Shown here one piece after another: positions 14,636-47,239 of a stretch of DNA of 64,000 nt. The DNA comes from a virus. The first letter of the stretch is position 1, and the number at the start of each line of letters is the position of its first letter. Position numbers and translations under genes: made by a program. The DNA is taken from positions 62,001 through 126,000 of IMG/VR virus record IMGVR_UViG_3300042691_041259; one strand, 5' to 3'. The notes under the pieces were generated by a model. It saw only the letters and a program-made list of their open reading frames with translations. It was not told the DNA's origin and did not search any database.

Positions 14636-14893
14636 TTAAAGATTCTTTAAAATCTCTGCCGTACTTTTTATTGTGTCCTCCACTTCCGTTCGTTTAGAAT
14701 CATCCATGACTACGGTGATTACTACCCGATCTTTAGACTTACCGTCGGGCTGATTGTCAAGTACCTCAGCTCCAAGAGGTTTAAGGTCGTTCAACAAATT
14801 GAACGTGTTAAAGTCTTTACCGACTTTCAGCAAATAGCGGTACTGCTTTTTGCCTTCATAAAGAAACTCTACGTAATTTGATACGTGTCTCAT
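14636..14893 (-). CDS. Small hypothetical protein, possible leader-family member
   Basis: 85 residues. The opening MRHVSNYVEFLYEGK weakly resembles the shared leader, with LYE as a possible cleavage site, but the rest of the leader pattern is loose. The body is an alternating strand/helix domain (KQYRYLLKVGKDFN ... DRVVITVVMDDSKR). It overlaps the stop of the ferritin-like gene by four bases and ends at a strong terminator, so it closes a transcript. Confidence 0.7.
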   Translation of the reverse strand: MRHVSNYVEFLYEGKKQYRYLLKVGKDFNTFNLLNDLKPLGAEVLDNQPDGKSKDRVVITVVMDDSKRTEVEDTIKSTAEILKNL

Positions 14894-15249
14894 TTAAGAG
14901 TCAATAAGTATTTGAGTTTGTCAAGCGCTGCTTTGATCTCATCGCAAATGTTCTTTAATTCGCTATCGCCATCTGCAATAAACGCGTTAGAGAAGAAGTC
15001 CAGCAAGCCATCAATAAAGGGTTCAACTTTAATGTTGTCAATATCGGCAACCGCAATCTGCTTCATGCCACCAAACTTGGGACGGCCATACTTACCGCTA
15101 TATGCTTCAATCAAGCTGTCAAACAGCTCATCCAATGTATCGTAAGTCATGCCAAAAGCATTATGCTCTGCGTAGCTTTCTGTTTGCCAGTGTAATACTC
15201 GCAACTGTGCCTGGATTTGTAGCACGTTATTTAAGAGTTCTTTTTCCAT
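14890..15249 (-). CDS. Dps/ferritin-like four-helix protein
   Basis: 119 residues, almost wholly helical. The segment LHWQTESYAEHNAFGMTYD ... LFDSLIEAYSGKYGRP has the His/Asp/Glu spacing seen in Dps and ferritin helices (HW...H...D..D..E). It is shorter than Dps (about 160 residues), so it may be a reduced relative rather than a working iron-storage protein. It overlaps the downstream small gene by ATGA. A second, longer ferritin is at 35387-35959. Confidence 0.65.
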   Translation of the reverse strand: MEKELLNNVLQIQAQLRVLHWQTESYAEHNAFGMTYDTLDELFDSLIEAYSGKYGRPKFGGMKQIAVADIDNIKVEPFIDGLLDFFSNAFIADGDSELKNICDEIKAALDKLKYLLTLK

Positions 15250-15305
15250 TTATCTTTTTTGGTTTTTACGCTTCTTGTATAATCATTGCATCAATGATAT
15301 GACCT

Positions 15306-15623
15306 TTATTTGTTTACCCAAGCACCTTCTTCTCCGTATGTGTATACGGCAACTTCGGAATTGTGCTTAACCGCAATAAGTTCCATTTTGTCCCAGTCTG
15401 AATCCTTCTTCAACTCATCAGCTACACCGGATTGATCGTATTTCTTTAACTTCTTGTCAAAGTCTTTTCCAACCGCAGTGTCAACCACCTGCCATGCATT
15501 GTCATCTCCGTATACAAAGGCAGTATTGCCAGGTTTTACTTGGTCAAACGACTTTGGATTGTATTTAACAGCTTCGCTCATAGAATCGCTGATGAAGCTT
15601 TCATATGTTTTAATATGTTTCAT
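15306..15623 (-). CDS. Leader-family protein, 105 aa (putative head internal protein)
   Basis: Starts MKHIKTYESFISDSMSEAV, a clear member of the shared leader family, although the expected (I/L)-x-E site is replaced by ISD followed by MSE. The body is a small, strand-rich domain with WQVVD and VAVYTYGEEGAW. Leader-type proteins are inferred to be packaged in the head; this one has no recognised enzymatic motif. Confidence 0.8.
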   Translation of the reverse strand: MKHIKTYESFISDSMSEAVKYNPKSFDQVKPGNTAFVYGDDNAWQVVDTAVGKDFDKKLKKYDQSGVADELKKDSDWDKMELIAVKHNSEVAVYTYGEEGAWVNK

Positions 15624-15649
15624 TCCTTTGATTATTTTATTTGTAGAAG

Positions 15650-15877
15650 TTAGTCTTTGTATTCAGCTCTTTCCTCGGCCTTTGCAGCATCAATGATATC
15701 GATGATGCAATCTGCTAATCTATCTGCATGTTTATAGTCTAAGATTGCTCCAGTTGCTTGTAGCTCCTTTTCCAAAGCTTCCACAGCTACTTTAACTTCA
15801 CCTTCCAAACTTGGTCTGATAGCTTTTGTTATTGCTCCTTCATTTAAGAAGTTCTCAAATGTGCGTACGTGCTTCAT
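15650..15877 (-). CDS. Leader-family protein, 75 aa (putative head internal protein)
   Basis: Starts MKHVRTFENFLNEGAITKA with an LNE site after residue 13. The rest is helical, with an acidic face (KVAVEALEKELQ, DAAKAEERAEYKD). A GATATATAG element lies 20 bases upstream, matching expression with virion genes. No known fold recognised. Confidence 0.8.
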   Translation of the reverse strand: MKHVRTFENFLNEGAITKAIRPSLEGEVKVAVEALEKELQATGAILDYKHADRLADCIIDIIDAAKAEERAEYKD

Positions 15878-15897
15878 TCTTTGATTTTTTTTACCTA

Positions 15898-15906
15898 CTA
15901 TATATC
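15898..15906 (-). promoter_or_regulatory. Candidate late promoter (GATATATAG)
   Basis: GATATATAG on the minus strand, 20 bases before the ATG at 15877 of a leader-family gene and just after the topoisomerase ATPase stop. Confidence 0.5.
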
Positions 15907-15911
15907 TTAGG

Positions 15912-17729: not shown

Positions 17730-17820
17730 TAGTTTATCTTAGAGTACATTTATTTTTGTGTACATTATTTATATTAACCCAAGTAATAAAGTTTTTCTAT
17801 GGTCACCTCTATACACTAGA

Positions 17821-25053: not shown

Positions 25054-25079
25054 AAAAAGCGGTCTAATGGCCGCTTTTT
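25054..25079. terminator. Bidirectional terminator between hsp20 and the leader-gene cluster
   Basis: A 9-bp stem (AAAAAGCGG and complement) with an 8-base loop, with A- and T-tracts on the two sides, between convergent genes ending at 25036 (plus) and 25078 (minus). Confidence 0.8.
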
Positions 25080-25314
25080 ATTTGTCTTTCTTTCCAAAAA
25101 GCTCATGATACTTCTTGGTGTGTTTAGATGTCTTTAATTGCTTCTTACCTTTAGTATCTCCAGGAAGCTCTTTGTAAGCATTAGGATCATCGTCATCAGC
25201 GGCAGCTTGATCCGCCATCTGATCTTTCTTCTTATCTGCAGTGCTTTTGCTAATTCCTTTGTAGTAAGGATGCTCTTCAGCTAAGAAGCTTTCGTATGTC
25301 TTTACGTGTTTCAT
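25078..25314 (-). CDS. Leader-family protein, 78 aa, basic
   Basis: Starts MKHVKTYESFLAEEHPYY with an LAE site. The remainder is very polar and lysine-rich with an aspartate run (AAADDDDPNAYKELPGD ... KHTKKYHELFGKKDK), likely disordered, as seen in DNA-condensing internal proteins. It is last in the leader cluster and ends in the bidirectional terminator. Confidence 0.8.
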   Translation of the reverse strand: MKHVKTYESFLAEEHPYYKGISKSTADKKKDQMADQAAADDDDPNAYKELPGDTKGKKQLKTSKHTKKYHELFGKKDK

Positions 25315-25316: not shown

Positions 25317-25577
25317 TTATTTATGGAGCTTTTCAAAATAGTCTATTAGGCCTTCAATAGCCTTTTCCTTGGTCTTGAATATGTCGTCGGCCTCGGTCAT
25401 GCCTGTTCCCGACTTATTTTCTCGGTGCCAAGTCCATCCACCCAGATGAGTATCTTTGTATATCTCAACTTTATGACCTTTGTAAGTTCCTTCGTAATAA
25501 CCAGTAGTAATCTTACGAAGTTTTAGATCAGAAGCGGATTCATTAACAAAACTTTCAAATGTGCGGACGTGTTTCAT
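25317..25577 (-). CDS. Leader-family protein, 86 aa
   Basis: Starts MKHVRTFESFVNESASD with a VNE site. The body is a small strand-rich domain (GYYEGTYKGHKVEIYKDTHL, WTWHRENKSGTG) then a helix (KEKAIEGLIDYFEKLHK); it resembles small phage domains of unknown function. Packed between two other leader genes with 2-6 base gaps. Confidence 0.8.
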   Translation of the reverse strand: MKHVRTFESFVNESASDLKLRKITTGYYEGTYKGHKVEIYKDTHLGGWTWHRENKSGTGMTEADDIFKTKEKAIEGLIDYFEKLHK

Positions 25578-25583: not shown

Positions 25584-25907
25584 CTATCCTTTTACTTCAT
25601 CGGCCAAGTCTTTATCAGCCTTGCCCCATGTACCTTTGCCTTTAGTAAGGAAGCTGTTAACACGAGCATATGCCCACTGTTCTTGCCCAGCTCCTGGACG
25701 GTGCCCACTCTTCCATGCAGCCATACCACGACGAAAAACCGCGCGAATGATTCCAATAGGAACGCCAGTCTCTTCAGCTTTTTTCTTTAGACCAGTTTCT
25801 ACAGCATCGTTGTCAATAGGACTACGGTCTGTGGATTTCTGTTCGCTGTCATCAGCTTCCCAGATCTTTTCCCACTCAAAACTTTCAAATGCGCTTATAT
25901 GTTTCAT
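25584..25907 (-). CDS. Leader-family protein with DUF5824-like domain
   Basis: 107 residues. The leader is MKHISAFESFEWEKIWEADD with IWE as the likely site. Residues about 45-103 (GVPIGIIRAVFRRGMAAWKSG ... AYARVNSFLTKGKGTWGKAD) match the pattern of the phage family annotated DUF5824, a compact helical domain of unknown function also found in capsid-region proteins. This is one of several known domains hitched to the leader. Confidence 0.8.
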   Translation of the reverse strand: MKHISAFESFEWEKIWEADDSEQKSTDRSPIDNDAVETGLKKKAEETGVPIGIIRAVFRRGMAAWKSGHRPGAGQEQWAYARVNSFLTKGKGTWGKADKDLADEVKG

Positions 25908-25912: not shown

Positions 25913-26251
25913 TTACTTTTTTACGTAAATCGCTCCAATGATACCGCCTTTTCCGAAAACTTTGGCCTTGATTACTTTTTTATCTGGTGATAATCTAGCC
26001 TCACCCTGATATGATTGCGATCTCCAAATAACTTCCCATTTTTCCGTATCAGACGCATACTTCTTTATCATTTTGTCATATTCGCCCTTTGGAGCTTTAT
26101 CGTCAAACATGATGTATGCATCGTAGTCTTTACCCAGGACCTTATCAACGACATTTTTTCTCATTTCGTCATCGGTAAAATTGGAGTTGCCGCCAAGAAA
26201 CGCGTAATGCGATTCGGCAATAAAACTTTCAAAATTGTGTACGTGTTTCAT
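25913..26251 (-). CDS. Leader-family protein, 112 aa
   Basis: From the ATG at 26251 it starts MKHVHNFESFIAESHYAF with an IAE site. An upstream ATG at 26371 would add 40 residues overlapping the previous gene and is rejected because the leader is then internal. The body has a helix and a strand domain (AYIMFDDKAPKGEYDKM, EVIWRSQSYQGEARL, IIGAIYVKK). Function unknown. Confidence 0.8.
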   Translation of the reverse strand: MKHVHNFESFIAESHYAFLGGNSNFTDDEMRKNVVDKVLGKDYDAYIMFDDKAPKGEYDKMIKKYASDTEKWEVIWRSQSYQGEARLSPDKKVIKAKVFGKGGIIGAIYVKK

Positions 26252-27219: not shown

Positions 27220-27906
27220 TTACTTGGGCGGAGCAAGATCCAACTCTTTCATCATATCAACTAGTTCGTTGTATCCGATTTCGCGAAAGTCTTTTTCCAA
27301 CCGCTTTCTATCTGTGTGAGGTGATCCTGAGACTACCTCAGATATTTTCTTTTTCAACTTGTCATCTCCGGTGTCAAATGCGGAAAGAATTCTTTGCACA
27401 TTTACATCACCTAAAGCCATTTCTTCAATATAGGCTTCATAAAGTTTAACGTGTTTCATCTTTTTCTTCTTTTTCTTTTTTGTTCCGGCACCGAAAGTAT
27501 CTCCGCTTCCAACTTTACCAGAAGCGGCAGGTGTAACGTTTCCCATACCTGGTGTATTTGCTACGCTTGCAGCTGGCGCGCCAAAATCTTCTTCAACCTT
27601 TTTTGACTTTTTACCAGTCACAAAATCCATAAAAGCTTGGACCAGCGGATCTGTTTGATCACGCTTCATTGCCATTGCTTGACCAGCCATCATCTGTGGT
27701 TGAGTATCCCACCAGTAGTAGTATTCTTCCACATGGTTAGGTAGCCCTTCATGTTTTGTAGAAGCAAAGTCCTTCAGCTGTTTTAATGTCATGGAATCCG
27801 CAAGGTCTTTTACCTCATCACTTGCGTCTTTTGGATCCATCTCATCTTTTTTCAAGGCGTATGCCATGGCCATCAATTTTTGCTGGGCTTTGGATGTTGC
27901 TGGCAT
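27220..27906 (-). CDS. DUF3008-like protein fused to an internal leader-family segment
   Basis: 228 residues. Residues 1-65 (MPATSKAQQKLMAMAYALKK ... DFASTKHEGLP) match the pattern of DUF3008, a small phage/plasmid-borne family. A low-complexity linker ends in seven lysines, then at residue 150 comes MKHVKLYEAYIEEMALG, a complete leader with IEE site, followed by a 60-residue helical body. The ATG at 27459 could start its own 79-residue protein in frame, or two genes have fused. It is the only leader not at a protein N-terminus. Confidence 0.75.
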   Translation of the reverse strand: MPATSKAQQKLMAMAYALKKDEMDPKDASDEVKDLADSMTLKQLKDFASTKHEGLPNHVEEYYYWWDTQPQMMAGQAMAMKRDQTDPLVQAFMDFVTGKKSKKVEEDFGAPAASVANTPGMGNVTPAASGKVGSGDTFGAGTKKKKKKKMKHVKLYEAYIEEMALGDVNVQRILSAFDTGDDKLKKKISEVVSGSPHTDRKRLEKDFREIGYNELVDMMKELDLAPPK

Positions 27907-27907: not shown

Positions 27908-28090
27908 TTATTTGCCTCCTAATGTTATGATTGATTGACGAGCATCCTCAATTGCTTGTAAGGTCTGCTTCATATTCTTGTCATCTGCAATTGATGAAGC
28001 CTCATCAAAGCACTTTAAGATTTCTTGAAGCTGCGGAGTTAGCGCCTCTTCAATTGACATTTTTTCTTTGAATTCTCCAAAAGACCTCAT
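27908..28090 (-). CDS. Small helical protein, possible leader family
   Basis: 60 residues, MRSFGEFKEKMSIEEALTPQ..., with an F-x-x-F pattern and IEE then A, a loose leader match. The rest is one or two helices (LQEILKCFDEASSIADD). Start overlaps the previous stop by ATGA. Confidence 0.65.
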   Translation of the reverse strand: MRSFGEFKEKMSIEEALTPQLQEILKCFDEASSIADDKNMKQTLQAIEDARQSIITLGGK

Positions 28091-28422
28091 TTCTGTGACG
28101 TTAATTTTTCGTGGATTCTCTTGCCTTCTGCAGACAGAGTATAGTACTTGATTCCTTCTTCCTCTTTCAGTTTGAAATACTTGGAATTAGCTTTCAGCCA
28201 ACCAGTATTAGTCTTTCTACCAGTTTCTTCATTCATCATCTTCAGGAACTGTGACATTTCTTCTTCACTCACCTTTCCTTTTTCGTTAACAAGTGAAAGG
28301 ATTCTTTCTCTGACTGGCGCATAGTTGGAAACCACCTTTTGGGGGTGCGACTCCGTGTATTTTCTTTTTACAACTACTATCGCTTCGTTAAGGAATTCGT
28401 TATATGATTTTACATGACTCAT
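28087..28422 (-). CDS. Leader-family protein with winged-helix-like body
   Basis: 111 residues. Leader MSHVKSYNEFLNEAIVV with LNE site. The body has helices (APVRERILSLVNEKGKVSEEEM, FLKMMNEETG) and a C-terminal KYFKLKEEEGIKYYTLSAEG resembling a wing and recognition strand, so a DNA-binding role is possible. A GATAAATATAG-like element lies 18 bases upstream. Confidence 0.75.
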   Translation of the reverse strand: MSHVKSYNEFLNEAIVVVKRKYTESHPQKVVSNYAPVRERILSLVNEKGKVSEEEMSQFLKMMNEETGRKTNTGWLKANSKYFKLKEEEGIKYYTLSAEGKRIHEKLTSQK

Positions 28423-30191: not shown

Positions 30192-31079
30192 TTATCCAAT
30201 TCCTTCGGGCAGCGGAAGCCCGGAATCATCAAGCTTTTTCTTATAGTCGCTCATGATATCATTTAAGCTTCCAGGATACTTAAAGTCTCCGGAAGTGAGC
30301 AACGAATAAAGTTTTTCATACGTATCAATATCAGAAGGCTTATGTCCACCATTAAATAGCAAGTCTACCACGCCTTGCGGCTCTCGAGTGATGAGTTTGT
30401 CATATTCGCTTAGAAGCTTCGCGGTCTTTACTAGTCCTTTCTTGCCTTCAAAGCTTTTTCTTACTTCCACAATGCCTTGATTTAACCTAACCACGTAGGC
30501 TTTGTACTCGGCAGTTTCTCCTTTGTCGGTTGTCTTTGTGGCCTCGAAAAAAGACTTGCCAATTGCTGCCATAAGCAAAAGGTTTCGGTATGCTCCTTTG
30601 TATTTAGACTCCGCAATTCGAAAGTCGGGTGAGTGGTAGATAAAAGTGCTCCATTCCAGGTCAGTGGAAAGCATGAGGTCAACTTGCCCAACACCATTTT
30701 TATAGTCTCCACCGATTGGAGCTCCAATACTTACTTGATTGAATCCTACTGCAAGTTTGGTGCTCATACCCATATCTTTTAATTTGTCATTCAAAGCAAA
30801 CAGAACTTTCTCGAGAGACACTCCTAAATGTCCAGCAATCTTGTCAGCCGAAACCGCCAAGTCAATGTCTCCGCTGGTTTGATCCGCCAATTTTTTGCCG
30901 GCACTTCCAAGAATTGCTGCATCATCTTTTATACCAGTTAGACCAATCTGTGGAAACACATTTTTTTCTACCCATGCTATGGTAGATTCTATTTGATCCT
31001 GTTTAAAAGGCACGGCATTCTCAATGGAGTTTCCGCTTTCAAATATGAACTGTTCAAATAGCTTAACGTATCTTTTCAT
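30192..31079 (-). CDS. Leader-family protein with Pol-beta-type nucleotidyltransferase fold
   Basis: 295 residues from the ATG at 31079; an ATG at 31124 would put the leader inside the protein. It starts MKRYVKLFEQFIFESGN with IFE site. Residues about 50-90 show ILGSAGKKLADQTSGDIDLAV, the G-S ... D-x-D nucleotidyltransferase signature; a third acidic residue is expected in GQVDLMLST. Such enzymes add nucleotides to RNA, proteins or small molecules. An injected transferase would modify host targets early; inferred. Confidence 0.85.
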   Translation of the reverse strand: MKRYVKLFEQFIFESGNSIENAVPFKQDQIESTIAWVEKNVFPQIGLTGIKDDAAILGSAGKKLADQTSGDIDLAVSADKIAGHLGVSLEKVLFALNDKLKDMGMSTKLAVGFNQVSIGAPIGGDYKNGVGQVDLMLSTDLEWSTFIYHSPDFRIAESKYKGAYRNLLLMAAIGKSFFEATKTTDKGETAEYKAYVVRLNQGIVEVRKSFEGKKGLVKTAKLLSEYDKLITREPQGVVDLLFNGGHKPSDIDTYEKLYSLLTSGDFKYPGSLNDIMSDYKKKLDDSGLPLPEGIG

Positions 31080-31600
31080 TATTCCCAGTCTTTTCTCTTT
31101 GATGCTTCTGAAGCAGTTAGCCATTTTCCATCAACTACATCATAGTAGATTGAATCGTTTGGCTCGCCTGGAAAGATTAGCGAACAGCCATTGCTGCCAC
31201 CGCCAGCGTGCTTATAGCTATAGTTAAGAGTTGCCCAGATATATGGTGCAAACTCAAAGTTTTCACCAGACGCCTTGTTAATCTGTGGGAATCCGCCGCC
31301 AGAAAAAGTATTGATATAGACTTCAGCAAAACCATATTGCATAACACCTAGATCTTTACCGGTTAGTGGTTTGCTGTCGAAAGAAATACGCTTGCCGTGT
31401 GCTTTAGCAGTTAGCGCATTGTATTTAATTCCTTGGCGGCTTAGCAAATCGTTAAGAGCCGGACCGGCGTTCTTAAGAATATCAGCCATTAGGGTTGCTT
31501 CATCCTTGAATTTAGGATTGCTGGTGTAAAGAGTGTTGTCTTCGTTGAGGACATCAGCATTTTCGTTCAAATAGTTATCAAAAGACTTAATGTGTTTCAT
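31079..31600 (-). CDS. Leader-family protein, 173 aa
   Basis: Starts MKHIKSFDNYLNENADV with LNE site. The body is strand-rich with a glycine-rich region (VYINTFSGGGFPQINK, YKHAGGGSNGCSLIFPGEP) and no recognised family. Its stop touches the start of the nucleotidyltransferase gene, suggesting coupled translation. Confidence 0.8.
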   Translation of the reverse strand: MKHIKSFDNYLNENADVLNEDNTLYTSNPKFKDEATLMADILKNAGPALNDLLSRQGIKYNALTAKAHGKRISFDSKPLTGKDLGVMQYGFAEVYINTFSGGGFPQINKASGENFEFAPYIWATLNYSYKHAGGGSNGCSLIFPGEPNDSIYYDVVDGKWLTASEASKRKDWE

Positions 31601-31859: not shown

Positions 31860-32089
31860 TCTGTCACTTCAAATACCGCTTCGCCTACCTTTACAGTTTT
31901 ACCTAATAGATCATCAATAAAGTAGATGTTTCCATAATTGTCCTCAAATCGCATATCATCAGTAAATTCATCTGATGCTTTTAACACTTGTAAAATTTCT
32001 GCAGGGCTCTCAGACACCTGTTCTTTTCCGCTGTTATCTAGAACATCAGCAAAGAGCACAATTTCTATAAGACTATTTTCAGTAAACAT
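31856..32089 (-). CDS. Small hypothetical acidic protein, 77 aa
   Basis: MFTENSLIEIVLFADVLDNSG..., acidic, mixed strand and helix, no leader and no recognised motif. Start overlaps the preceding stop by 11 bases and its own stop overlaps the next gene by ATGA. Confidence 0.7.
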   Translation of the reverse strand: MFTENSLIEIVLFADVLDNSGKEQVSESPAEILQVLKASDEFTDDMRFEDNYGNIYFIDDLLGKTVKVGEAVFEVTE

Positions 32090-32300
32090 TAGGTATAGGT
32101 TTTTTCCTTTTGGTAAGTTCCGCTTTTACTTCTTCAAGATCTTTACTGAGAAGCTCGGCTTCTTTCTTTTTTCCACGCGATTCTGCAGCCTTCTTTTCAT
32201 TGGAAAGCTCTATAACTTGAGCAGCCAATTCATTGTTAGAGTACGCACTCCAAGAATCTGTTTCATTTAAAAAGTTTTCAAATGTTTTTACGTGTTTCAT
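32079..32300 (-). CDS. Leader-family protein, 73 aa, coiled coil
   Basis: From the ATG at 32300 it starts MKHVKTFENFLNETDSW with LNE site; an ATG at 32315 would cover the TGAATATAA element. The body is a charged coiled coil (VIELSNEKKAAESRGKKKEA). Unusually for this family, a replication-type TGAATATAA element lies 5 bases upstream. Confidence 0.8.
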   Translation of the reverse strand: MKHVKTFENFLNETDSWSAYSNNELAAQVIELSNEKKAAESRGKKKEAELLSKDLEEVKAELTKRKKPIPNVY

Positions 32301-32319: not shown

Positions 32320-32859
32320 TTACCAAGGTTCTTCTGAGCTTAAACCAAGTTGTTTTCCAAATAGTGAAGGAGCATAGCACGCCCAAAAACCTGCGGTGGT
32401 TGGATCCATCTTCTTTTTCAGATCGCACTGTTGGCGGGACCAAAAGCTTGCTGAAGCTTTAGGATCATCGTTTTTAATACTGAGACCGCTAGTATCGCCC
32501 CATGTGATCTTTACTGCAATGATATTTCCATCATCATCTTTCTTTCCACTATTATGATAGACTGTAAACTTTTTATCTCCTCCGCGGAAAGGGGTGTCGA
32601 GTTCTACGTCGATCATTTTTCCATCAGAAGTTTTAAACTTGGCCTTGGTTCCCACTTCTAAATTAGAGGCCATCCAAGCAGCCTTGTCCGAGAGAATCAC
32701 ATTATCCTCGTCCCAATACTTCTTGGTTTCTTCAAAAAGCTCTTTATAGGCTTGGCTGCCTAGACGGTAAATTGAGTTGGTAATGTCCAACCCGTTTTCC
32801 ATGTGGTAGCGAAATCCCTCAGAAACCTGAAAGTCTTCAAATGTCTTTACGTATTTCAT
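32320..32859 (-). CDS. Leader-family protein, 179 aa
   Basis: Starts MKYVKTFEDFQVSEGFRY with VSE as the likely site. The body holds strand pairs (DGKMIDVELDTPFRGGDKKF, IIAVKITWGDTSG) and a cysteine-containing C-terminus (SRQQCDLKKKMD, FWACYAPSLFG). Family not recognised. Leader DNA is almost identical to that of the next gene upstream. Confidence 0.8.
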   Translation of the reverse strand: MKYVKTFEDFQVSEGFRYHMENGLDITNSIYRLGSQAYKELFEETKKYWDEDNVILSDKAAWMASNLEVGTKAKFKTSDGKMIDVELDTPFRGGDKKFTVYHNSGKKDDDGNIIAVKITWGDTSGLSIKNDDPKASASFWSRQQCDLKKKMDPTTAGFWACYAPSLFGKQLGLSSEEPW

Positions 32860-32860: not shown

Positions 32861-33238
32861 CTAGTATATGATTTTAACAGGTACTTCTTTGACCCCTATT
32901 TCTTGTAGAGCTAGCATGCGGTGTGAACCATCGTGAAACGATGGCGCAAGGCCTTTATCGTACTGAAACTTATCAGCAAACCACATAGTTGGTGCTGGAA
33001 TATCTTTGGCATTTCCTCGGAATTCTTTAACATAATTAGCAACTTTGGTTTTATTAACTTCAAATCTATGATGTTGGACTCTCTTTAAGAAGTCAATAGG
33101 ACTCATGTTAACAATAATCTGTATAAACTCACTACTATGCTTCTTTAAATCATCATCCCAATCTTCACGACCAGTAGTATCCGTGTTAAATGATATAGTC
33201 TCATTTAGGAAGTCTTCAAATGTCTTTACGTATTTCAT
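32861..33238 (-). CDS. Leader-family protein with ParB-like domain
   Basis: 125 residues. Leader MKYVKTFEDFLNETISF with LNE site. The end, PAPTMWFADKFQYDKG ... FHDGSHRMLALQEIG followed by VKEVPVKIIY, matches the ParB/Srx-type pattern (D-G-x-H-R then a P-V strand), a fold used by CTPases, nucleases and modification enzymes. Because the leader suggests entry with the DNA, it may act on DNA or nucleotides at the start of infection; inferred. Confidence 0.82.
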   Translation of the reverse strand: MKYVKTFEDFLNETISFNTDTTGREDWDDDLKKHSSEFIQIIVNMSPIDFLKRVQHHRFEVNKTKVANYVKEFRGNAKDIPAPTMWFADKFQYDKGLAPSFHDGSHRMLALQEIGVKEVPVKIIY

Positions 33239-33243: not shown

Positions 33244-34293
33244 TTATCTTCCTTGAAATTTGTTGATGTTTTGGTTAATTACAACTCCTCTAAATATATC
33301 TATAGATCTATCTATTACCGGCTCAGCCATCCATTTTTCAGGGTTAATAATAGTTTCCAAGTACGGAACTAGCGCATTAGAAATTTCTCGTGATGCAGCA
33401 TTCCACAAGTATGTAGGAGTATGATCTACTGAGTAATATGAAATGCCTCTTTCAAGTTCAATAATTGGACTTTCAAATGTGGTAGGTTCTGCAAAGTAGA
33501 ACCCCATGCCTTTATCACAGCTGATGTCTATGATTGCTACGTTATTTCTAAGGAGCGCAAGTTCATTGGGAGTTTTTACATACATTAGTGGAGAATTTAC
33601 ATTCTGCAGTATGCCATTGAATATGATATCCGCGTCGGCAAGATCACTACTTAGGTCATCGGTAGAAATGCACTTATACCATACGTCCGGATTTTTATCA
33701 GCTACCAAGTGTGAAGGCCTTTGAGTGTACACCGTGATATTATTGAATCCGCGACCCTGCAATGCATAGATTGCGCCTCGACTTACAGACCCATAGCCTA
33801 AAACTACTACTTTCTTTCTTGGACCGTAATGACCGTCCATTCCTTTAAGTTCTAAGAAATGCAAAACTCCGGCATACCCCGCAAGTTCATTGTTCCTATA
33901 GAATATGTGTAACTTTCCGTGCTTATTTGTTAGATTCATTTCTTCCCAAGCAAGCAGTGTTAGCTTCTTTTCAATTGCCAAATCAGCAATATCTTTCTGC
34001 TGTACCGCGTGTGTCCAGCCACAAAGGATTCCGCCTTCTTTCATCTGTTCCAGGTCTGCTGCAACAGGCTTTGGCAAAATAATGATGTCACAGTTATACA
34101 GCTGTTCTCTTGGAGCTACTCTACAGCCAAAATTCAAAAAGTACTCATCGGAGTACCCATAGTCAGCGCCATAGCCTTCTTCAAACACAAGCTGCTCTCG
34201 GACGCTTTTCTCAATTTTACGAATATGCTCGGGATAAATTGGAATGCGTTTTTCGTTTTCCTTATACGATGTTTTGAATACTCCTGTTGTCAT
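33244..34293 (-). CDS. N5-(carboxyethyl)ornithine synthase/alanine dehydrogenase-like oxidoreductase
   Basis: 349 residues. The N-terminal TSYKENEKRIPIYPEHIRKI, GWTHAVQQKDIADLA, YAGYAGVLHFLEL, the Rossmann VVVLGYGSVSRGAI and the C-terminal TPTYLWNAASREISNAL all follow the pattern of carboxyethylornithine synthase, an NADPH-linked opine-forming relative of alanine dehydrogenase. It may reductively condense an amino acid with a keto acid. No leader. Its start overlaps the ATP-grasp gene stop by four bases, so the two probably work in one pathway. Such an enzyme is rare in phages as far as I know. Confidence 0.85.
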   Translation of the reverse strand: MTTGVFKTSYKENEKRIPIYPEHIRKIEKSVREQLVFEEGYGADYGYSDEYFLNFGCRVAPREQLYNCDIIILPKPVAADLEQMKEGGILCGWTHAVQQKDIADLAIEKKLTLLAWEEMNLTNKHGKLHIFYRNNELAGYAGVLHFLELKGMDGHYGPRKKVVVLGYGSVSRGAIYALQGRGFNNITVYTQRPSHLVADKNPDVWYKCISTDDLSSDLADADIIFNGILQNVNSPLMYVKTPNELALLRNNVAIIDISCDKGMGFYFAEPTTFESPIIELERGISYYSVDHTPTYLWNAASREISNALVPYLETIINPEKWMAEPVIDRSIDIFRGVVINQNINKFQGR

Positions 34294-35378
34294 TTCTTAT
34301 CTAGGTTGAAAAAGTACCGATAACCGTCTTTTGCTTTGGGATCTGTTATGAGTTCATAATCCATTGCCCATTGCGACGATTGAATTTCCTTTTTGTATTT
34401 TGGCCAGTAGTTCTGGTGTCCAGGAACTACGTATTTTTTGTAGATGTCTTCCAAGAATTCGTCGGGAAGCTGCTCACCGTAAAAGTCTTCATAAATTGCT
34501 TTATAGACTTCGCACATTTTCACGCTTCCCAACCCGGTTGCGGATGAAGTTTCCATCACCCACAGCTTTCCTTTCTTATCTACTACAATATCCAGCGACC
34601 AAAGGTTTAAGTCCAAGTCTTTCTTAATATCTGAACAGATTTGCAGAACGCTTTTGATAAATTCAGGAGAAACCTTATTTCTGTCTTGGTACACATATGT
34701 AAAAGCAATTTTTTCATTTGCTTTCTTGGTCTTAATAGAGCGGTCCTCATCAATGGTAGGAACTCGTTCATTAATGATGATGATCTGGTCCTGGCAAAAT
34801 ACTACCCGGTATTCTCTTTCAAAATCAATAAACTGGCAAAAAAGATCAAAATCTTCTTTGCTTTTCTTTAGTTCTTCGGGAGTGTCAAACTTTTGAACTC
34901 CTAATCCACTGTGGCCATTTTTAATTTTGGCAATCACAGGAAAACCAACAGCTCCGTCTAGCGCTTCTTTTTTAGAAAACACTGTTTTTGGAAGCCACTT
35001 GTATTTTCCAAAAGTTTTGCCAAACAAGGTTTTATCGCCCGACGTTGGCAAAAGTTCTCTTTTATTGTATAAGAGATCGCTGTTTACCTTTTTATTTTTG
35101 ATAAACATTTCAGACTCTTTGTCCTGTCCGCCTCCGTAATAGAGAAGCGGAATTCCATCTACAATCTGAACCTTTTCATTGTCAAAATCATCTTTGGTAA
35201 AGTAATTATGAAACAGCGCATTTTTAGCGGCCATGTTGTATTTTTTTTCGCGGCCGTTTACATCTCCCGAAGTTGTGCGTATGTCATTGGACTGCATGAC
35301 CCAGCCAACTTTCTTGGCGTACTTGTCATACATATTGGCTTCAAAGATAAATTGTTCGTAGAGTTTAACGTGTTTCAT
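34290..35378 (-). CDS. Leader-family ATP-grasp ligase
   Basis: 362 residues. Leader MKHVKLYEQFIFEANMY with IFE site. ATP-grasp marks: FPVIAKIKNGHSGLGV (glycine-rich loop region), FCQFIDFEREYRVVF, and WSLDIVVDKKGKLWVMETS with the metal-binding Asp and Glu; ATGLGSVKM follows. ATP-grasp enzymes join a carboxylate to an amine or thiol using ATP, as RimK and glutathione synthetase do. Paired with the opine-type dehydrogenase, it could make a modified amino acid or peptide, or tag a protein; inferred. Confidence 0.88.
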   Translation of the reverse strand: MKHVKLYEQFIFEANMYDKYAKKVGWVMQSNDIRTTSGDVNGREKKYNMAAKNALFHNYFTKDDFDNEKVQIVDGIPLLYYGGGQDKESEMFIKNKKVNSDLLYNKRELLPTSGDKTLFGKTFGKYKWLPKTVFSKKEALDGAVGFPVIAKIKNGHSGLGVQKFDTPEELKKSKEDFDLFCQFIDFEREYRVVFCQDQIIIINERVPTIDEDRSIKTKKANEKIAFTYVYQDRNKVSPEFIKSVLQICSDIKKDLDLNLWSLDIVVDKKGKLWVMETSSATGLGSVKMCEVYKAIYEDFYGEQLPDEFLEDIYKKYVVPGHQNYWPKYKKEIQSSQWAMDYELITDPKAKDGYRYFFNLDKK

Positions 35379-35386: not shown

Positions 35387-35959
35387 TTATCCAAAGTATT
35401 CATTTTCAAAGTATAGAATCTCGAACTTGCTATCCGTGTTGATCAAGGTCAACGCGTTCAGAAGATCTGAGTATTCGCCCACTGCTTCATTCTGAATGTC
35501 AACATACCCTTGAATGAAGTTAAATGTAGCACAGTGAATGTCACAAAGAATTCTTTGACCTTTTTCACAGTACTTGTCATACAAATCGTATTCCATTTGG
35601 TAAGCGCGATTAATGATATCTACCAGGCTTACAAAATCAACTCGTGTAGGAGCTTGCGGAATGGCTGGCATTTCGTTCCACTGTACAAGGTAGTCCTGTA
35701 GACCTTTTGCGTGTTCTAGTTCGCTTGCCGCTTCAGCTTCAAAGAAAGCGGCTGCTTTTTTGTAGTTTACATTATTACACCAGTTTGCAGCATTTCTGTA
35801 GAAGTAATGCGCTGTATACTCGTCACCAATACGGTCATTGAGCATATTCACAACTTCTGCAGGAAGCTTATTAGGTGTGATTGGCTTAACCGCAGTCAGA
35901 TCAATTGCTTCATTGATCGTAATGTTGTTATCGCCTTTGAATGTTTGAAAAGTTTTCAT
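35387..35959 (-). CDS. Ferritin-like protein, likely leader-family variant
   Basis: 190 residues with the ferritin four-helix pattern: DRIGDEYTAHYFYRNAANW, FFEAEAASELEHAKGLQDYL (E-x-x-H) and YVDIQNEAVGEYSDLL, giving ferroxidase-site Glu and His. The opening MKTFQTFKGDNNITINEAI has MKTF-x-x-F and an INE site, so it may also be packaged. Ferritins store iron and limit oxidative damage; a head-borne ferritin would be unusual. It sits between two leader-type enzymes. Confidence 0.85.
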   Translation of the reverse strand: MKTFQTFKGDNNITINEAIDLTAVKPITPNKLPAEVVNMLNDRIGDEYTAHYFYRNAANWCNNVNYKKAAAFFEAEAASELEHAKGLQDYLVQWNEMPAIPQAPTRVDFVSLVDIINRAYQMEYDLYDKYCEKGQRILCDIHCATFNFIQGYVDIQNEAVGEYSDLLNALTLINTDSKFEILYFENEYFG

Positions 35960-36544
35960 CTATTTTATGTATTTTCTTAGCTCATCAAAGTACTTATGAA
36001 GCTCTTTAGGCATCTGTTCGTCGAAAGCTTTTTTGTCGTCGTCCTTTAATGCCTGACGAACTTTAGTTCCGCTTGGCCCACCGTCCTCTCTTGCGTCTAC
36101 CATCTTTACATTAAAGGATGGATCAACTGGAGTATCAGTTTTTGGACCAGTGATATATTCAACTTGTCTTTTGTAATCCGAGAATCGGTCACTTCCGCAA
36201 CCAACACCCATCGGCTCATAACCTTTGCTGCGTAGGAATTGCACCATCAGCGGTATTACCGTCTTTTGACCTTGTGGATAAATGAAATAGTCAGCAATGT
36301 AATTGTTAGCTTTTACCACATCGGCTCCCATCTTTTCCAGCAATGAATCCGGAAATGGAGACTCTTCTTTTTTGGAAAGAATTTGAATAGGTATCACAGG
36401 TAAGCCAAATTCCTCAGAAGTTCTTTTCAAAGCTGCCAAATGTCCATTGTGAAATGGCTGGAACCTTCCAGGAAAGAACACCACTTTTTGGCCTTCTTTC
36501 TCAAAAATAAAGCTTTCAAATGTCTTAACGTATTCTTTTCTCAT
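35960..36544 (-). CDS. Leader-family nucleotidylyltransferase (HxGH, NMNAT-like)
   Basis: 194 residues. Leader MRKEYVKTFESFIFEKEG with IFE site, directly followed by VVFFPGRFQPFHNGH, the nucleotidylyltransferase HxGH motif, and later DGGPSGTKVRQAL, a version of the second motif of NMN/NaMN adenylyltransferases and FAD-type enzymes. GVGCGSDRF is a third conserved strand. It probably transfers AMP or CMP to a small substrate, most simply making NAD from NMN. The nearly contiguous leader and catalytic core support cleavage after residue 14. Confidence 0.88.
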   Translation of the reverse strand: MRKEYVKTFESFIFEKEGQKVVFFPGRFQPFHNGHLAALKRTSEEFGLPVIPIQILSKKEESPFPDSLLEKMGADVVKANNYIADYFIYPQGQKTVIPLMVQFLRSKGYEPMGVGCGSDRFSDYKRQVEYITGPKTDTPVDPSFNVKMVDAREDGGPSGTKVRQALKDDDKKAFDEQMPKELHKYFDELRKYIK

Positions 36545-37155: not shown

Positions 37156-38478
37156 TTATTTTTTATAGGCAAGTATGCTTCGGATTTGATGAAGCGGAGC
37201 AAAAATTCCAGTATACTTATAGAGCTTACCTTTGAATACAAAAGTAATTCCTTCGGTAGGTACTATACTTTCCAGTCCGCCAGCAGCTGCTACTCGAGTA
37301 AGCTCGTGTTCCAGCTTTGCTACATCTTTTTCATCACCATTAGTGCGAATAGAAGAAATCACAGAATCAATTTCTTTTCTCATAGAAGCTGCAGCAGCTG
37401 TAGGATTAGCTGACAAAAACGCACTGATGTTTTTCATCATTTCAGTTCCAACTTCCAGGAAGAGACTTTCCAACGGACCGTATACCTTTCTTTTGAGTTC
37501 TTTTCCACGGCTCTTTTCCATGTCAACAAACCAGTTAGCTCCTTCGCCCAAGTCTTTTTTCAGCTGTGCCGCAGTGTATGACTTGTCAATGTCTGCTATT
37601 CTTCGAGCCAAACCGTCCATTGAATTTTCTGGAATTTCCACTTTTGCTTTAGCAGCTTCTTCCTTCAGAATTTTCTTAGCCATGCCTAAAGCATAATCAC
37701 CAACCGTACTGTTAGAAGTAGAACCGCTTTCTGCCATAATGGAATCAAGCTTGCTCTTGTAATAGGAAGCCCGTTCCTTTGTTTTTGGAAATGGAATAGA
37801 AGCTATATCTTGCGGACCTCGAACAAAGAAAGTTTCTTGAGCAGTTGCATTAGCATCCGCCACAAGTTTTCCAAGTTCTCTACCGGCCTGCTTATCTTCA
37901 CCAATTGCGTTACCATCTGCATCGTGTTCAACTACGCCATGAAATACAAGCATATTCTGTCCATACGGAACAGTATTTTGTGTAATAGGCGTAATGACTT
38001 CAACCGAAGCAAAATTCTTTCCATCGTTAAAGTACTTCTTTTTGTCAGCTTCTGACAGTGAATTGATGGCACCAGTAAGATCTTTCATAGCCGCATTATA
38101 TGCGGTTTCAATATCACCTCGGCCCGCAAACATACTTGCGATACCCGCAGAATCCAAAGCAGCTTCTCCACCATTTTTAAGGTGAGACTTGTTACGAGCC
38201 GCAATAAGCTTCCCGTTTTTCCAAGAGATCATGATGTTTTGACCGTCGGTCTTTTCTTGAACAAAGTTCTCAGGCCCGAACGCGCCGCTAACGGTGGCCT
38301 CAATCATTTCGCGAAGGTCTGCCATCGTCAGTCCTACGTCTTCAAACGGATGACTGATATGGCCGTACGCTCCACCTTCATTTACCGCATTCCACTCTGC
38401 CCAAGAATTAGTACGGCCTTCGTAAAGCCTTACTTGTTCAAGAAATGCATTGTAGCTGTATAGTCTGTTTGTACTCAT
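37156..38478 (-). CDS. ATP-dependent ligase-like nucleotidyltransferase
   Basis: 440 residues. Motif I FVQEKTDGQN (adenylated lysine K-T-D-G), GKLIAARNKSHLKNGG, motif III FASVEVITP, and motif IV/V region EGITFVFKGKLYKYTGIF are in the right order for a DNA or RNA ligase or a related capping-type enzyme. The middle (about 200-370) is helical and longer than in small ligases. The opening MSTNRLYSYNAFLEQVRLYEG is a possible weak leader with LYE. A role in RNA repair is plausible; substrate unknown. Confidence 0.75.
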   Translation of the reverse strand: MSTNRLYSYNAFLEQVRLYEGRTNSWAEWNAVNEGGAYGHISHPFEDVGLTMADLREMIEATVSGAFGPENFVQEKTDGQNIMISWKNGKLIAARNKSHLKNGGEAALDSAGIASMFAGRGDIETAYNAAMKDLTGAINSLSEADKKKYFNDGKNFASVEVITPITQNTVPYGQNMLVFHGVVEHDADGNAIGEDKQAGRELGKLVADANATAQETFFVRGPQDIASIPFPKTKERASYYKSKLDSIMAESGSTSNSTVGDYALGMAKKILKEEAAKAKVEIPENSMDGLARRIADIDKSYTAAQLKKDLGEGANWFVDMEKSRGKELKRKVYGPLESLFLEVGTEMMKNISAFLSANPTAAAASMRKEIDSVISSIRTNGDEKDVAKLEHELTRVAAAGGLESIVPTEGITFVFKGKLYKYTGIFAPLHQIRSILAYKK

Positions 38479-38684
38479 TAGAATGTGCTGTCCATTATTA
38501 CTTTTGCGATATCATCAATTAAACCGCTTTTAGCAACATCCGCGCCTGGCTTAAGATAGTTTTCTTTCATCATATGTTCAATAATGACTGTTGCAAGAAC
38601 TTTAGCGCCTGATGGCTTATTCTTCCCTGCTACTTGTACTGCTGCTTCGGCAACAAATGTCTCAAATGATTTAGTGTAATTCAT
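38478..38684 (-). CDS. Leader-family protein, 68 aa
   Basis: Starts MNYTKSFETFVAEAAVQV with VAE site, followed by a short helical body (KVLATVIIEHMMKENYLK) that would be about 57 residues after cleavage. Sequence-packed: its stop overlaps the ligase-like start by ATGA and its start abuts the next stop. Confidence 0.8.
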   Translation of the reverse strand: MNYTKSFETFVAEAAVQVAGKNKPSGAKVLATVIIEHMMKENYLKPGADVAKSGLIDDIAKVIMDSTF

Positions 38685-38957
38685 TTACGGTGCTGTTTTT
38701 ACATGATCTATGAATGCTTCAAAGGCCTTTGTAAGATCCTCATACGCTTCATCAAGATTCGTAATATCTTTCTGATTAGGCACACCCGACACTGGATTGG
38801 GTTCTAGCGTTGCACGCATTGCAAGCTCTGCGGCTGCGGCTTTCGCCTTCTTTTGCAGATCAAGATATTTGTTAACATACTGCTTGAGGCGTGCCTCAGA
38901 AGGACTCGCCTCGTTGATTCCGTTTTCAAATTCTGAAAAGTTCATCTTATTTGGCAT
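38685..38957 (-). CDS. Leader-family protein, 90 aa, helical
   Basis: Starts MPNKMNFSEFENGINEASPSE with INE site. The body is alanine-rich helix (LKQYVNKYLDLQKKAKAAAA) then EAYEDLTKAFEAFIDHV. Alanine- and lysine-rich helices suit a scaffold/core component. An ATG at residue 5 is an alternative start. Confidence 0.75.
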   Translation of the reverse strand: MPNKMNFSEFENGINEASPSEARLKQYVNKYLDLQKKAKAAAAELAMRATLEPNPVSGVPNQKDITNLDEAYEDLTKAFEAFIDHVKTAP

Positions 38958-39375
38958 CTTTTTCAGTATCGATTTCGCCTTCCTTGTTTACTTCTTCTCC
39001 CTGCTCTTCTTCTTTCTTAGGCTTAGCATCTTTTACTTCTTCACCGCCTTCTTGCGCGTCTTCAGCAGCAGGGAGTTTTTCAGTTTCTTTAGCATCTTTA
39101 GCAGCAGGAATTTCAGCTTCTTTAACACCAGCTTCATCTTTTTCTTTTTCAACTTTGTCTTTTGCCGCAGGCTTAACACCTTTGCCAGCATCCCAGTCAG
39201 CTGCAATCTCATTGAAGAACTCTTTCTTCTTCTCGTCGTCCAAGTCAGCAGGAGATTCTACTCCGTACTTTGCAAGTTTTGCTTGGAAATAGTCTTGGTA
39301 AGACTTTTGCAGCTCTGATTTTTTAGCATCTTCGGCTTCGCGGATTGAACCAATCCATTCACTAAATTTTTTCAT
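38947..39375 (-). CDS. Acidic leader-family protein, 142 aa (head core-like)
   Basis: Starts MKKFSEWIGSIREAEDAKK with IRE site, then a helix and a long, very acidic Glu/Lys/Ala/Asp region (KDAKETEKLPAAEDAQEGG, KEGEIDTEKDAK), disordered. Such charged proteins resemble head-core (prohead scaffold) or internal-protein components; assignment is by composition only. Confidence 0.75.
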   Translation of the reverse strand: MKKFSEWIGSIREAEDAKKSELQKSYQDYFQAKLAKYGVESPADLDDEKKKEFFNEIAADWDAGKGVKPAAKDKVEKEKDEAGVKEAEIPAAKDAKETEKLPAAEDAQEGGEEVKDAKPKKEEEQGEEVNKEGEIDTEKDAK

Positions 39376-40223: not shown

Positions 40224-40610
40224 TTATGACATTCCGTAGATGTTCTGGAATTTTCCGTAGTATTTATCCAACTCCTCACTAAGTATTTTGGTAACAGCTT
40301 CCTGACCCATTCCTACCGCATCGGCAAGCTTCTTGATGATATCTTCATCAATACGAAGTTTTTTGTCCATTGCATGAACAAAGGTAGTAACACACTGGTT
40401 AATGAGAGTTTCTAACTGCTTATCGCCTTCGGCTTTAGGCCAAAATATGTCAAGCAGATGAGATCTGAGTCCATCTAAAGTGGGGTCTGCGTGGTTAACT
40501 CCCGATGCTACGGGATTGTTAGTCATGGGAAGATCGTGAGACTTGGAACTCTTTGCGTTTCCTGCTCCTCTTGCATAACCCTCGTTAAGAAATTCTTTGA
40601 AAGACTTCAT
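40224..40610 (-). CDS. Leader-family protein, 128 aa
   Basis: Starts MKSFKEFLNEGYARGAG, the shortest leader, with LNE at residues 8-10, closely like the T4 form MKTYQEFIAE. Then a Ser/Lys-rich stretch and a helical domain (LRSHLLDIFWPKAEG, IIKKLADAVGMGQEAVTKIL). Has its own GATATATAG element 16 bases upstream and heads the long leftward leader-gene run. Confidence 0.8.
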   Translation of the reverse strand: MKSFKEFLNEGYARGAGNAKSSKSHDLPMTNNPVASGVNHADPTLDGLRSHLLDIFWPKAEGDKQLETLINQCVTTFVHAMDKKLRIDEDIIKKLADAVGMGQEAVTKILSEELDKYYGKFQNIYGMS

Positions 40611-42167: not shown

Positions 42168-42169
42168 TT

Positions 42170-44621: not shown

Positions 44622-44634
44622 TGTTGGGTTTATA

Positions 44635-45567: not shown

Positions 45568-45613
45568 TTGTTTTTTAGTGATTTTAAGTTACTTTGAGGG
45601 ATTTATTTGATTT

Positions 45614-45622
45614 TTATATTCA
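45614..45622 (-). promoter_or_regulatory. Candidate early/middle upstream element (TGAATATAA)
   Basis: TGAATATAA on the minus strand, 46 bases before the SSB ATG at 45567, in the 55-base spacer after the upstream coiled-coil gene. Confidence 0.4.
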
Positions 45623-45928
45623 TCAGGGATAAAAGGTTTCCGTCCTATTTTCACTTGCCCACGTAGAGGCAATTCTTTTTAGTTCGGTTATTTCTATTCC
45701 AGACTTTTCTGATAGATTGATAAACCATTGAGATTCTGCTTTCCGTGTGTCTTCTAGTTCTTTCACAATGTCTCCTTGAAGAGCAATCACTTTCTGTACG
45801 TGATCTTCTAAATTCTTCAGCTCTGCATAGAGCTGATCATATTTGTTGACAAAATTGGCAATAGTTTCAAAATCATCCTTTTGAAACGGCTGCCCATTCT
45901 TCAACTCGATAGAGCTTTCTGAAATCAT
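45623..45928 (-). CDS. Hypothetical coiled-coil protein, 101 aa
   Basis: MISESSIELKNGQPFQKDD..., helical with heptad repeats (NKYDQLYAELKNLEDHVQKV) and no known family. It overlaps the end of the next gene upstream and lies just before the SSB. Confidence 0.7.
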   Translation of the reverse strand: MISESSIELKNGQPFQKDDFETIANFVNKYDQLYAELKNLEDHVQKVIALQGDIVKELEDTRKAESQWFINLSEKSGIEITELKRIASTWASENRTETFYP

Positions 45929-46076
45929 CGATGTTTAGTCCTTTTAGAGTTGCGAAAGATTGCTCAGCCCATTCCAGGCTTTCGCTTCTTAATTTTGCGA
46001 TCTTTTCCTTTGCCGGGTCAGATGCTTGATAAAAGTAATATGTTGTTATTGTATCTTCCATATCGTTTATATTCAT
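45873..46076 (-). CDS. Small hypothetical protein, 67 aa
   Basis: MNINDMEDTITTYYFYQAS... from the ATG at 46076, which overlaps the resolvase stop by ATGA. ATGs at 46115 and 46061 are alternatives; a TGAATATAA element overlaps this start (46067-46075), so 46061 is also credible. Helical, acidic; function unknown. Confidence 0.7.
   Translation of the reverse strand: MNINDMEDTITTYYFYQASDPAKEKIAKLRSESLEWAEQSFATLKGLNIDDFRKLYRVEEWAAVSKG
46067..46075 (-). promoter_or_regulatory. Candidate early/middle upstream element (TGAATATAA)
   Basis: TGAATATAA on the minus strand, lying on the stop of the resolvase and the start of the small gene; 5 bases before the ATG at 46061. Its placement inside coding sequence makes it the weakest of the set. 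Confidence 0.25.
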
Positions 46077-46714
46077 TTGGTGTTTAAAGTTTTCTCTAAA
46101 GTTTTTGCTATCCAATACGAATCTACAATATCGTCAACGGGCTTAAGCCAGGCACCTTTCTTTGTCTGAAATTCTGCTGGTGCTGTTCGCAAAGCCTGTG
46201 CAAAAGTAGAATCACAATCTGAATTTATGAACGCCTCGATCATCTGTTCTTTCTTAAAGTTTCCCTTTCCGGCAGTTGCCTTAATGGTCATAGGAGAAAA
46301 GAACCAGAGCTGGTCTGGACTGATTTTGCAGTCCTCAATTAAAAAAGATCGAAGCAACCATTGATACCCACTAATCTGGGCTAAACGGTTTCCGCTTGAC
46401 CCAAAGGAAAATCCTTCAATTGCTATTTGATCTTCCTCGTTAAAAGACCAGGCAGAAAGCATTTTTGAAATGCTACGAGTCTGCATTAAGCCATCCTTAA
46501 TGGAAGATCTTTCACGGTCAGTAAGTTTTGCGGATTTTGGTAGTGATTGCTCATCGGGTAATGCTATTACATTTACACCGTGTTGTTGAAGCGTAAGAAA
46601 AAAGTCTTCCTTGGCTACACTTTGTCTTGCAAATGTATAGAATTTCCATTCACCTGCATCTGTAAGCAGTGTAATGGCAGGAGACTTAATTGAAAAGTCT
46701 ATGCCTGCTATCAT
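46073..46714 (-). CDS. RuvC-like Holliday junction resolvase
   Basis: 213 residues of RNase H-type fold with acidic motifs: GIDFSIKSPAI (first Asp), IAIEGFSFGSSG (Glu) and PVDDIVDSYWIAKT (D ... D). T4 uses endonuclease VII (gp49) for this; a RuvC-like enzyme is an alternative resolvase. It would cut branched DNA before packaging. Confidence 0.85.
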   Translation of the reverse strand: MIAGIDFSIKSPAITLLTDAGEWKFYTFARQSVAKEDFFLTLQQHGVNVIALPDEQSLPKSAKLTDRERSSIKDGLMQTRSISKMLSAWSFNEEDQIAIEGFSFGSSGNRLAQISGYQWLLRSFLIEDCKISPDQLWFFSPMTIKATAGKGNFKKEQMIEAFINSDCDSTFAQALRTAPAEFQTKKGAWLKPVDDIVDSYWIAKTLEKTLNTK

Positions 46715-47037
46715 TTTCCGATGTTTTTACCTATTGCGGATCCCAAAGCTGTAGAAACCAATCGTGAAGTAAGCATATCATAGAGGATTCCTCTTTCAAC
46801 GCCTAATGCATTTGCAATAATTTTTCCGATTGTTGGACCTACCAAGAAACCTGCTGCGCCTCCGATGATTGATCCCAGGATCCCTTCATCAATGCTTGCA
46901 ACACCGTGTATTTCTACAGCCTCTTGAATTTCTTTGTAGATTCGTTCTGCTTCAGCCTTTTCAGATTCGTTTAGGTAGCTCAGATCCATGCTTTCTTCCA
47001 GCAATTGAACCTTACGTGATTCGTCAAATGTTTTCAT
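46711..47037 (-). CDS. Glycine-rich membrane-like small protein
   Basis: 108 residues, MKTFDESRKVQLLEESMDL... with a C-terminal glycine- and alanine-rich hydrophobic half (GILGSIIGGAAGFLVGPTIG, ALGSAIGKNIG) that may insert in membranes. The opening is a possible weak leader. A holin-like or pore-forming role is conceivable but unproven. Stop overlaps the resolvase start by four bases. Confidence 0.65.
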   Translation of the reverse strand: MKTFDESRKVQLLEESMDLSYLNESEKAEAERIYKEIQEAVEIHGVASIDEGILGSIIGGAAGFLVGPTIGKIIANALGVERGILYDMLTSRLVSTALGSAIGKNIGK

Positions 47038-47038
47038 T

Positions 47039-47239
47039 CTATAGCAATTTTTTAAGCTCTTCTAGGAACGGCCCGTAATTACGATCGCCGTAATCATCTT
47101 CCATAATTTTGGCAACAGCCGCAGCAAAGTCTTTATATGACATGCTGTCGTCTATTTTTTCCATTCCGGCTTTTATGTGTTTAACCAAGCTGGAAACGGT
47201 TGAAGATGATTCATTGATAGCCTCGTTGAAAGATTTCAT
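47039..47239 (-). CDS. Small protein with short leader, 66 aa
   Basis: MKSFNEAINESSSTVSS... with INE as a possible site, then a helical body (LVKHIKAGMEKIDDS, YGPFLEELKKLL). Its GATATATAG element 15 bases upstream fits the virion set. Confidence 0.7.
   Translation of the reverse strand: MKSFNEAINESSSTVSSLVKHIKAGMEKIDDSMSYKDFAAAVAKIMEDDYGDRNYGPFLEELKKLL

Follow-up and report, generated by a model that had tools for sequence, protein, structure and literature searches.

The internal proteins of bacteriophage T4 (IPI, IPII and IPIII) have unrelated bodies behind a capsid-targeting sequence (CTS), an N-terminal leader of 10-14 residues with two aromatic residues and an [LIV]xE site. There are three CTS proteins in T4 and at least ten across all T-even phages, and T4 Ip1-3 inhibit GmrSD restriction once they have been injected (PMC12373910). 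When the T4 CTS was mutagenised, targeting proved to depend mainly on residues 4 and 7, and processing on residues 8 and 10; Asp at residue 10 allows targeting and blocks processing (PMC9026906). A large protein cargo processed by the prohead protease is also seen in the ejection proteins of phiKZ, 201phi2-1 and SPN3US. phiKZ and 201phi2-1 have 19 cleaved head proteins each (PMC10052503), and the phiKZ-type propeptides, mostly longer than 100 residues, go with an S80 protease (PMC5694885). Here we describe a large set of proteins with a CTS-like leader of 10-15 residues, encoded by the virus record IMGVR_UViG_3300042691_041259 (202,505 bases). The window, the whole stretch of 64,000 bases that was analysed, covers bases 62001-126000 of this record.

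A short N-terminal leader is shared by many proteins

Inspection of the window had suggested that about 20 of its proteins begin with a common leader, and the translations show it at the coordinates in question. A first regular expression matched 28 of the 673 longest open reading frames (ORFs); shuffled N-termini, which served as the control, gave 2.7 matches on average and 8 at most. A leader profile of 11 columns was grown iteratively from eight genomes, with neither T4 sequence nor the huge phage LR756501 in the training set, and leaders scoring at least 9 bits were called strong. The whole record has 22 strong leaders, compared to 0.1 expected per shuffled set; 16 belong to ORFs inside the window (Table 1) and six lie outside. 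Four more ORFs in the window have variant leaders scoring 4.7-7.5 bits (starts 14893, 25907, 32859 and 39375). Most examples named in the original prediction were strong by this measure; 25907, 32859 and 39375 stand as variants only, and 40209 was not supported by the profile alone. Among its weaker cases, 47239 proved to be strong and 14893 a variant, while 28090, 31859, 35959, 38478 and 47037 found no support from the profile alone. Leaders at 15623 and 38945 and an internal one, MKHVKLYEAYIEE at 27459 in ORF 27220-27906, had been overlooked.

The profile columns read [IVL][KP][TS][FY][ED][ED][F][LIV][N]E followed by S, A or G, and FENFLNE is an example of the core. The Glu after the hydrophobic-x position is 96% conserved across the eight genomes and is identical to the specificity of the T4 prohead protease gp21. 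Among 209 leaders, the first targeting position is F or Y in 99% and the second is F, W or Y in 98%. The [LIV]xE site that ends the leader has L, I or V at P3 in 205/209 and E at P1 in 201/209.

A profile search of related phages, proposed with the original prediction, gave 15-52 strong leaders in each of seven relatives. The profile found no leaders in G006, a T4-like phage that is more distantly related and has a protease of ordinary length. DNA patterns for the leader core were strand-biased and above control in many contigs of 130-290 kb. The 735-kb LR756501 has 50 leader proteins (0.4 expected), some of whose bodies are related to each other. In cultured Flavobacterium phage immuto, which has an unfused protease, no leader was found within 150 kb. 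At the left end of the record (L001, 1926-3869 and 6261-8717), large proteins of secreted type have C-terminal regions that resemble the sorting domains of type IX secretion, which points to a Bacteroidota host.

The leader matches the T4 capsid-targeting sequence

The likeness to the T4 internal-protein leader, as originally proposed, was borne out. Among 132 ORFs from 50 kb of T4, the T4-free profile gave its top scores, 22.2 bits, to ipIII and ipII; the third ORF scored 5.7 bits and ipI was fourth with 4.7 bits. The leader aromatics correspond to CTS positions 4 and 7, and the [LIV]xE site to positions 8 and 10, in agreement with the T4 mutagenesis. Since the T4 Asp variant is targeted yet unprocessed, the protein of ORF 15306-15623, with Asp at its cleavage site, is predicted to be targeted but poorly cut, which would make it a natural test case. 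A T4 pattern match at 126 kb lies antisense within gene 30 and was attributed to chance. Matches to the PHROG 'internal head protein' model were weak and confined to the relative G004; this model also gave matches in Bacillus subtilis and was not used.

Alternatively, the leader could look like a CTS but address its proteins to a different compartment or partner made by the phage, such as a replication body or a host-protease adaptor. The presence of the tag varies among orthologues, which fits such a role, but the conserved Glu has the gp21 specificity, the protease-scaffold protein described below contains an array of the motif, and the profile picks up the T4 internal proteins. We therefore consider this explanation very improbable.

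The set differs in scale from that of T4, where the three CTS proteins are small and of the anti-restriction type, compared to 15-52 per genome here, including enzymes. Neither the long propeptides nor the S80 protease of the phiKZ type were found. Those phages have no single common short tag and use an SQE/AQE/TFE-type cleavage motif, whereas the relatives studied here carry an S77 protease. In a literature search that had most subscription journals outside its reach, we found no account of a CTS set this large and no report of a scaffold repeat matching the CTS. The main text of Al-Shayeb et al. 2020 (PMC7162821), the source of the huge phages, does not mention capsid targeting or injected proteins.

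The leader is a modular protein tag

When the leaders were stripped off, the 22 proteins of this record fell into 22 unrelated families, the 52 of G004 into 50 families, and the 209 of all genomes into 115 families, 70 of them singletons. Because the bodies are mutually unrelated, the leader set is not a paralogous family. Codons at conserved leader positions match genome-wide usage, and the 60 bases upstream of leader genes are hardly conserved, with almost no information per column; selection thus acts on the protein. The leader is a selected protein tag, neither a paralogous family nor a repeated DNA element. That many neighbouring genes have similar N-termini might have pointed to a DNA or RNA element (a recombination site or a translation enhancer) or to recent paralogous expansion. 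Both are contradicted, the element by the codon choice and the uninformative upstream columns and the expansion by the lack of similarity among bodies within a genome, so we give this explanation practically no weight.

Orthologues exist with and without the tag. A DUF5856 protein is leadered in G005 and leaderless in the window (14890-15249). The cytidylyltransferase domain of 35960-36544 forms, in marine relatives, the N-terminal section of a long protein that has no leader. The 440-aa protein (37156-38478) has a G006 homologue that makes up the C-terminal section of a protein of 1,214 aa. Leader genes did not turn over faster than other genes: 9/17 are shared with the relative G001, compared to 87/172 of the others.

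Relatives fuse the prohead protease to scaffold repeats of the leader pattern

The T4 gp21 family (S77, PF03420) was found in 6/8 relatives, in five of them within open frames of 611-643 aa. In the nearest relatives by major capsid protein (MCP; 90% identity), a 631-aa protease ORF lies directly upstream of the MCP gene. These relatives thus resemble T4 in their S77 protease and gp23-type MCP. In T4, however, protease and scaffold are separate genes, while in the relatives they are fused: the S77 domain comes first and a helical region of 14-residue repeats follows. The ELDHP and ISSRA motifs are present in 70/70 distinct fusions.

The core of the scaffold repeat, [FY]xx[FYH][LIV]xE (for example YSEYIAE), is the leader pattern. 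A whole-proteome search outside N-termini placed the highest density of the motif in the fusion protein, with 11 copies in the 631 aa of the G001 version. Among the [ILVM]xE sites in the repeat region of the 70 fusions, 34% have aromatics at -6 and -3 (or His at -3), compared to 1.2% elsewhere in the proteome. The motif exceeded every one of 200 shuffles in 67/70 fusions, and its commonest spacings were 14, 28 and 42. An AlphaFold model of the fusion was confident for the protease and C-terminal domains, and Foldseek matched it to T4-type prohead proteases and to a Tenacibaculum phage 'prohead core scaffolding protein and protease'. This S77 protease fused to scaffold repeats of the leader pattern, together with the conserved LxE site in MCPs described next, is new here.

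All 32 distinct MCPs of the relatives keep an [LV]xE site (HxLxE) near residue 45, without the aromatics, and this site is predicted to be cut by the protease. Because the MCP site lacks the aromatics, the comparison suggests that [LIV]xE would be the protease site and the aromatics the docking part, which agrees with the T4 mapping. Aromatics do precede the site of T4 gp23 itself, so this division of roles is tentative.

Fusions with core repeats were also found in the huge phages LR756501 (735 kb), LR756504 (636 kb), LR745206 (635 kb) and LR756500 (462 kb). LR756500, LR756501 and LR756504 share the fused protease, 3-14 motif repeats of the YSEYIAE type and leader proteins with the relatives, but have larger genomes and more diverged leaders. 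Tenacibaculum phages PTm1 and pT24 likewise have a long S77 protease-scaffold ORF beside the capsid genes; they differ in that no leader was found in two 12-kb stretches, and by DNA pattern the whole records had none above control.

In the megaphage protease-scaffold proteins L328, L330 and L331, the repeats YSEYIAENLDKNIA are near-perfect and in tandem, and their number depends on the phage.

A putative route from prohead to host cell

We propose that the leader is a T4-type CTS that docks on the scaffold and is cut after E, and that the mature proteins are injected; we put the probability of this reading at roughly 0.9. Late in infection, the two aromatics of its leader would let a tagged protein dock on the prohead core, which would be built by a scaffold that is fused to a gp21-type protease and bears the tandem 14-residue unit [FY]xx[FY][LIV]xE. 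After shell closure, the protease would cut behind the Glu of [LIV]xE in leaders and scaffold repeats, and also at the HxLxE site of the MCP. The leader and scaffold peptides would exit, leaving the tag-free proteins with the DNA. These would be injected at infection and could act ahead of any phage gene expression.

Several results weigh against this proposal. A prohead protease had been expected elsewhere in the genome, and none was found in the 202.5-kb record, where PF04586 and PF03420 searches were negative. The record stops inside gp23, the MCP gene, which explains why the virus's own protease, presumably present, is not seen; Pfam Gp23 matched the C-terminal part only, and the maturation-site region lies beyond the record end. 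By DNA pattern, leaders are few or absent in G013 and G018, which both have a fused protease. Several leaders deviate, with D or a shifted E at the cleavage position. The helical, repeat-bearing middle of the fusion was modelled with low confidence only, and the late promoter TATAAATA showed no significant excess upstream of leader genes.

The motif common to tag and scaffold points to docking by a simple mechanism. It would also fit a different role, in which the tagged proteins are targeted and cut in the same way but are mainly prohead core components that serve head assembly, not delivered effectors. T4 IPIII affects head assembly (PMC9026906), and a few leader proteins, such as 32320-32859, are conserved in most relatives. 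However, the bodies are unrelated and often phage-specific (70/115 families are singletons), several are enzymes, and in T4 the anti-restriction proteins Ip1-3 are injected (PMC12373910). A mainly structural role therefore seems unlikely to us, and delivery of the tagged proteins is preferred.

We further suggest, as slightly more likely than not, that the tag on the cargo is a free-standing copy of the unit from which the scaffold is built. In a T4-like lineage of about 140-735 kb, whose protease-scaffold polyprotein holds as many as about 14 [FY]xx[FYH][LIV]xE repeats in tandem, a gene gaining this unit at its 5' end would become a self-releasing passenger that mimics the scaffold, and about 20-50 unrelated proteins per virus would be co-assembled and delivered. 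A phage may thus extend its head cargo with new proteins by gaining a dozen codons. If true, large T4-like phages that infect Bacteroidota would, as a general strategy, inject a whole set of enzymes. A T4 curiosity would become a sequence rule, since the leader profile flags about 20-50 probable injected proteins per uncultured large-phage genome. Most of these have no known function and form a candidate list of counter-defence and host-takeover factors.

Putative cargo and leader genes in the window

One copy of each mature leader protein of the record would sum to about 434 kDa. Most bodies had no domain match. The matched ones include cytidylyltransferase/NMNAT-type and ATP-grasp-like domains, in keeping with the earlier claim that the set includes enzymes, as well as a pol-beta-type nucleotidyltransferase motif, DUF5824 and, behind a weak leader, a ferritin-like domain. 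GNAT, GT2, LicD, PAP2, KTSC and DUF5856 are additional leadered domains in relatives. Since T4 Ip1-3 inhibit GmrSD restriction after injection, the small leader proteins most likely have a counter-defence role. The enzymes may act immediately on host metabolites.

Table 1. Leader genes and related ORFs of the window. Rows headed leader protein score at least 9 bits; on this strand, the higher coordinate is the start. A slash marks the end of the leader.
Feature	Leader	Coordinates	Strand	Evidence
Variant leader	MRHVSNYVEFLYE/G	14636..14893	-	Profile, 7.5 bits
Leader protein, Asp replacing Glu	MKHIKTYESFISD/S	15306..15623	-	Profile; T4 D10 precedent (PMC9026906)
Leader protein, 75 aa	MKHVRTFENFLNE/GA	15650..15877	-	Profile, 24.7 bits
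Leader protein	MKHVKTYESFLAE/E	25078..25314	-	Profile
Leader protein	MKHVRTFESFVNE/S	25317..25577	-	Profile
Variant leader (FESFEWE), DUF5824	MKHISAFESFEWE/K	25584..25907	-	Profile variant; domain match
Leader protein	MKHVHNFESFIAE/S	25913..26251	-	Profile
DUF3008, then poly-Lys, then internal leader (start 27459)	MKHVKLYEAYIEE	27220..27906	-	Translation; regular expression; domain match
Leader protein	MSHVKSYNEFLNE/A	28087..28422	-	Profile
Leader protein, pol-beta-type nucleotidyltransferase motif (GSAGK..SGDIDLAV)	MKRYVKLFEQFIFE/S	30192..31079	-	Profile; motif
Leader protein, G005 homologue leaderless	MKHIKSFDNYLNE/N	31079..31600	-	Profile; orthologue comparison
Leader protein	MKHVKTFENFLNE/T	32079..32300	-	Profile
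Variant leader, E shifted by one	MKYVKTFEDFQVSE	32320..32859	-	Profile variant; orthologue comparison
Leader protein	MKYVKTFEDFLNE/T	32861..33238	-	Profile
Leader protein, ATP-grasp-like enzyme (R2K_2 E 2e-4, below curated cut-off)		34290..35378	-	Profile; domain search
Ferritin-like protein, IPI-like N-terminus (weak case)	MKTFQTFKGDNNITINEA	35387..35959	-	Ferritin E 4e-16; outside profile reach
Leader protein, cytidylyltransferase/NMNAT-type domain from residue 23	MRKEYVKTFESFIFE	35960..36544	-	Profile; domain search
440-aa protein, degenerate leader, KTDG motif		37156..38478	-	Orthologue comparison
Leader protein	MNYTKSFETFVAE/A	38478..38684	-	Profile
Leader protein	MNFSEFENGINE/A	38685..38945	-	Profile
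Variant leader	MKKFSEWIGSIREAE	38947..39375	-	Profile, 4.8 bits
Leader protein	MKSFKEFLNE/G	40224..40610	-	Profile
Leader protein	MKSFNEAINE/S	47039..47239	-	Profile

Some of the less regular cases have counterparts in relatives. The G001 orthologue of 25584..25907 has its own leader, MSHVKLYEEFLWD. The body of 32320..32859 is kept in relatives, and the G004 version carries the leader MKNIPEFEDFIRE. Relatives of the 440-aa protein with a clear leader were found in LR756500 (MKFLKSYEEFLNE) and G001. The N-terminus at 35959, MKTF..F.......INEA, resembles T4 IPI. For the body of 30192..31079, a Pfam search gave no match.

The internal leader of ORF 27220-27906 can be read either as a fusion or as a second start. 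A second body follows this complete leader; if it is cut there, two products would come from one ORF. An RNA ligase label for the 440-aa protein, taken from its KTDG motif, was withdrawn because Foldseek found no match in the PDB for its AlphaFold model. The 440-aa protein and the cytidylyltransferase/NMNAT-type protein, whose genes lie near each other in the window and which each have a leader or what is left of one, are fused in one long leaderless protein in the marine relatives L027, L049 and L059, and probably also in Microcystis phage Mel-JY01. A leaderless alanine dehydrogenase/PNT-like enzyme (33244-34293) lies within the leader-gene cluster and adjoins the ATP-grasp leader gene. Elsewhere in the window, the 459-aa product of 22567-23946 looks like the exonuclease/N-terminal part only of a family B DNA polymerase.

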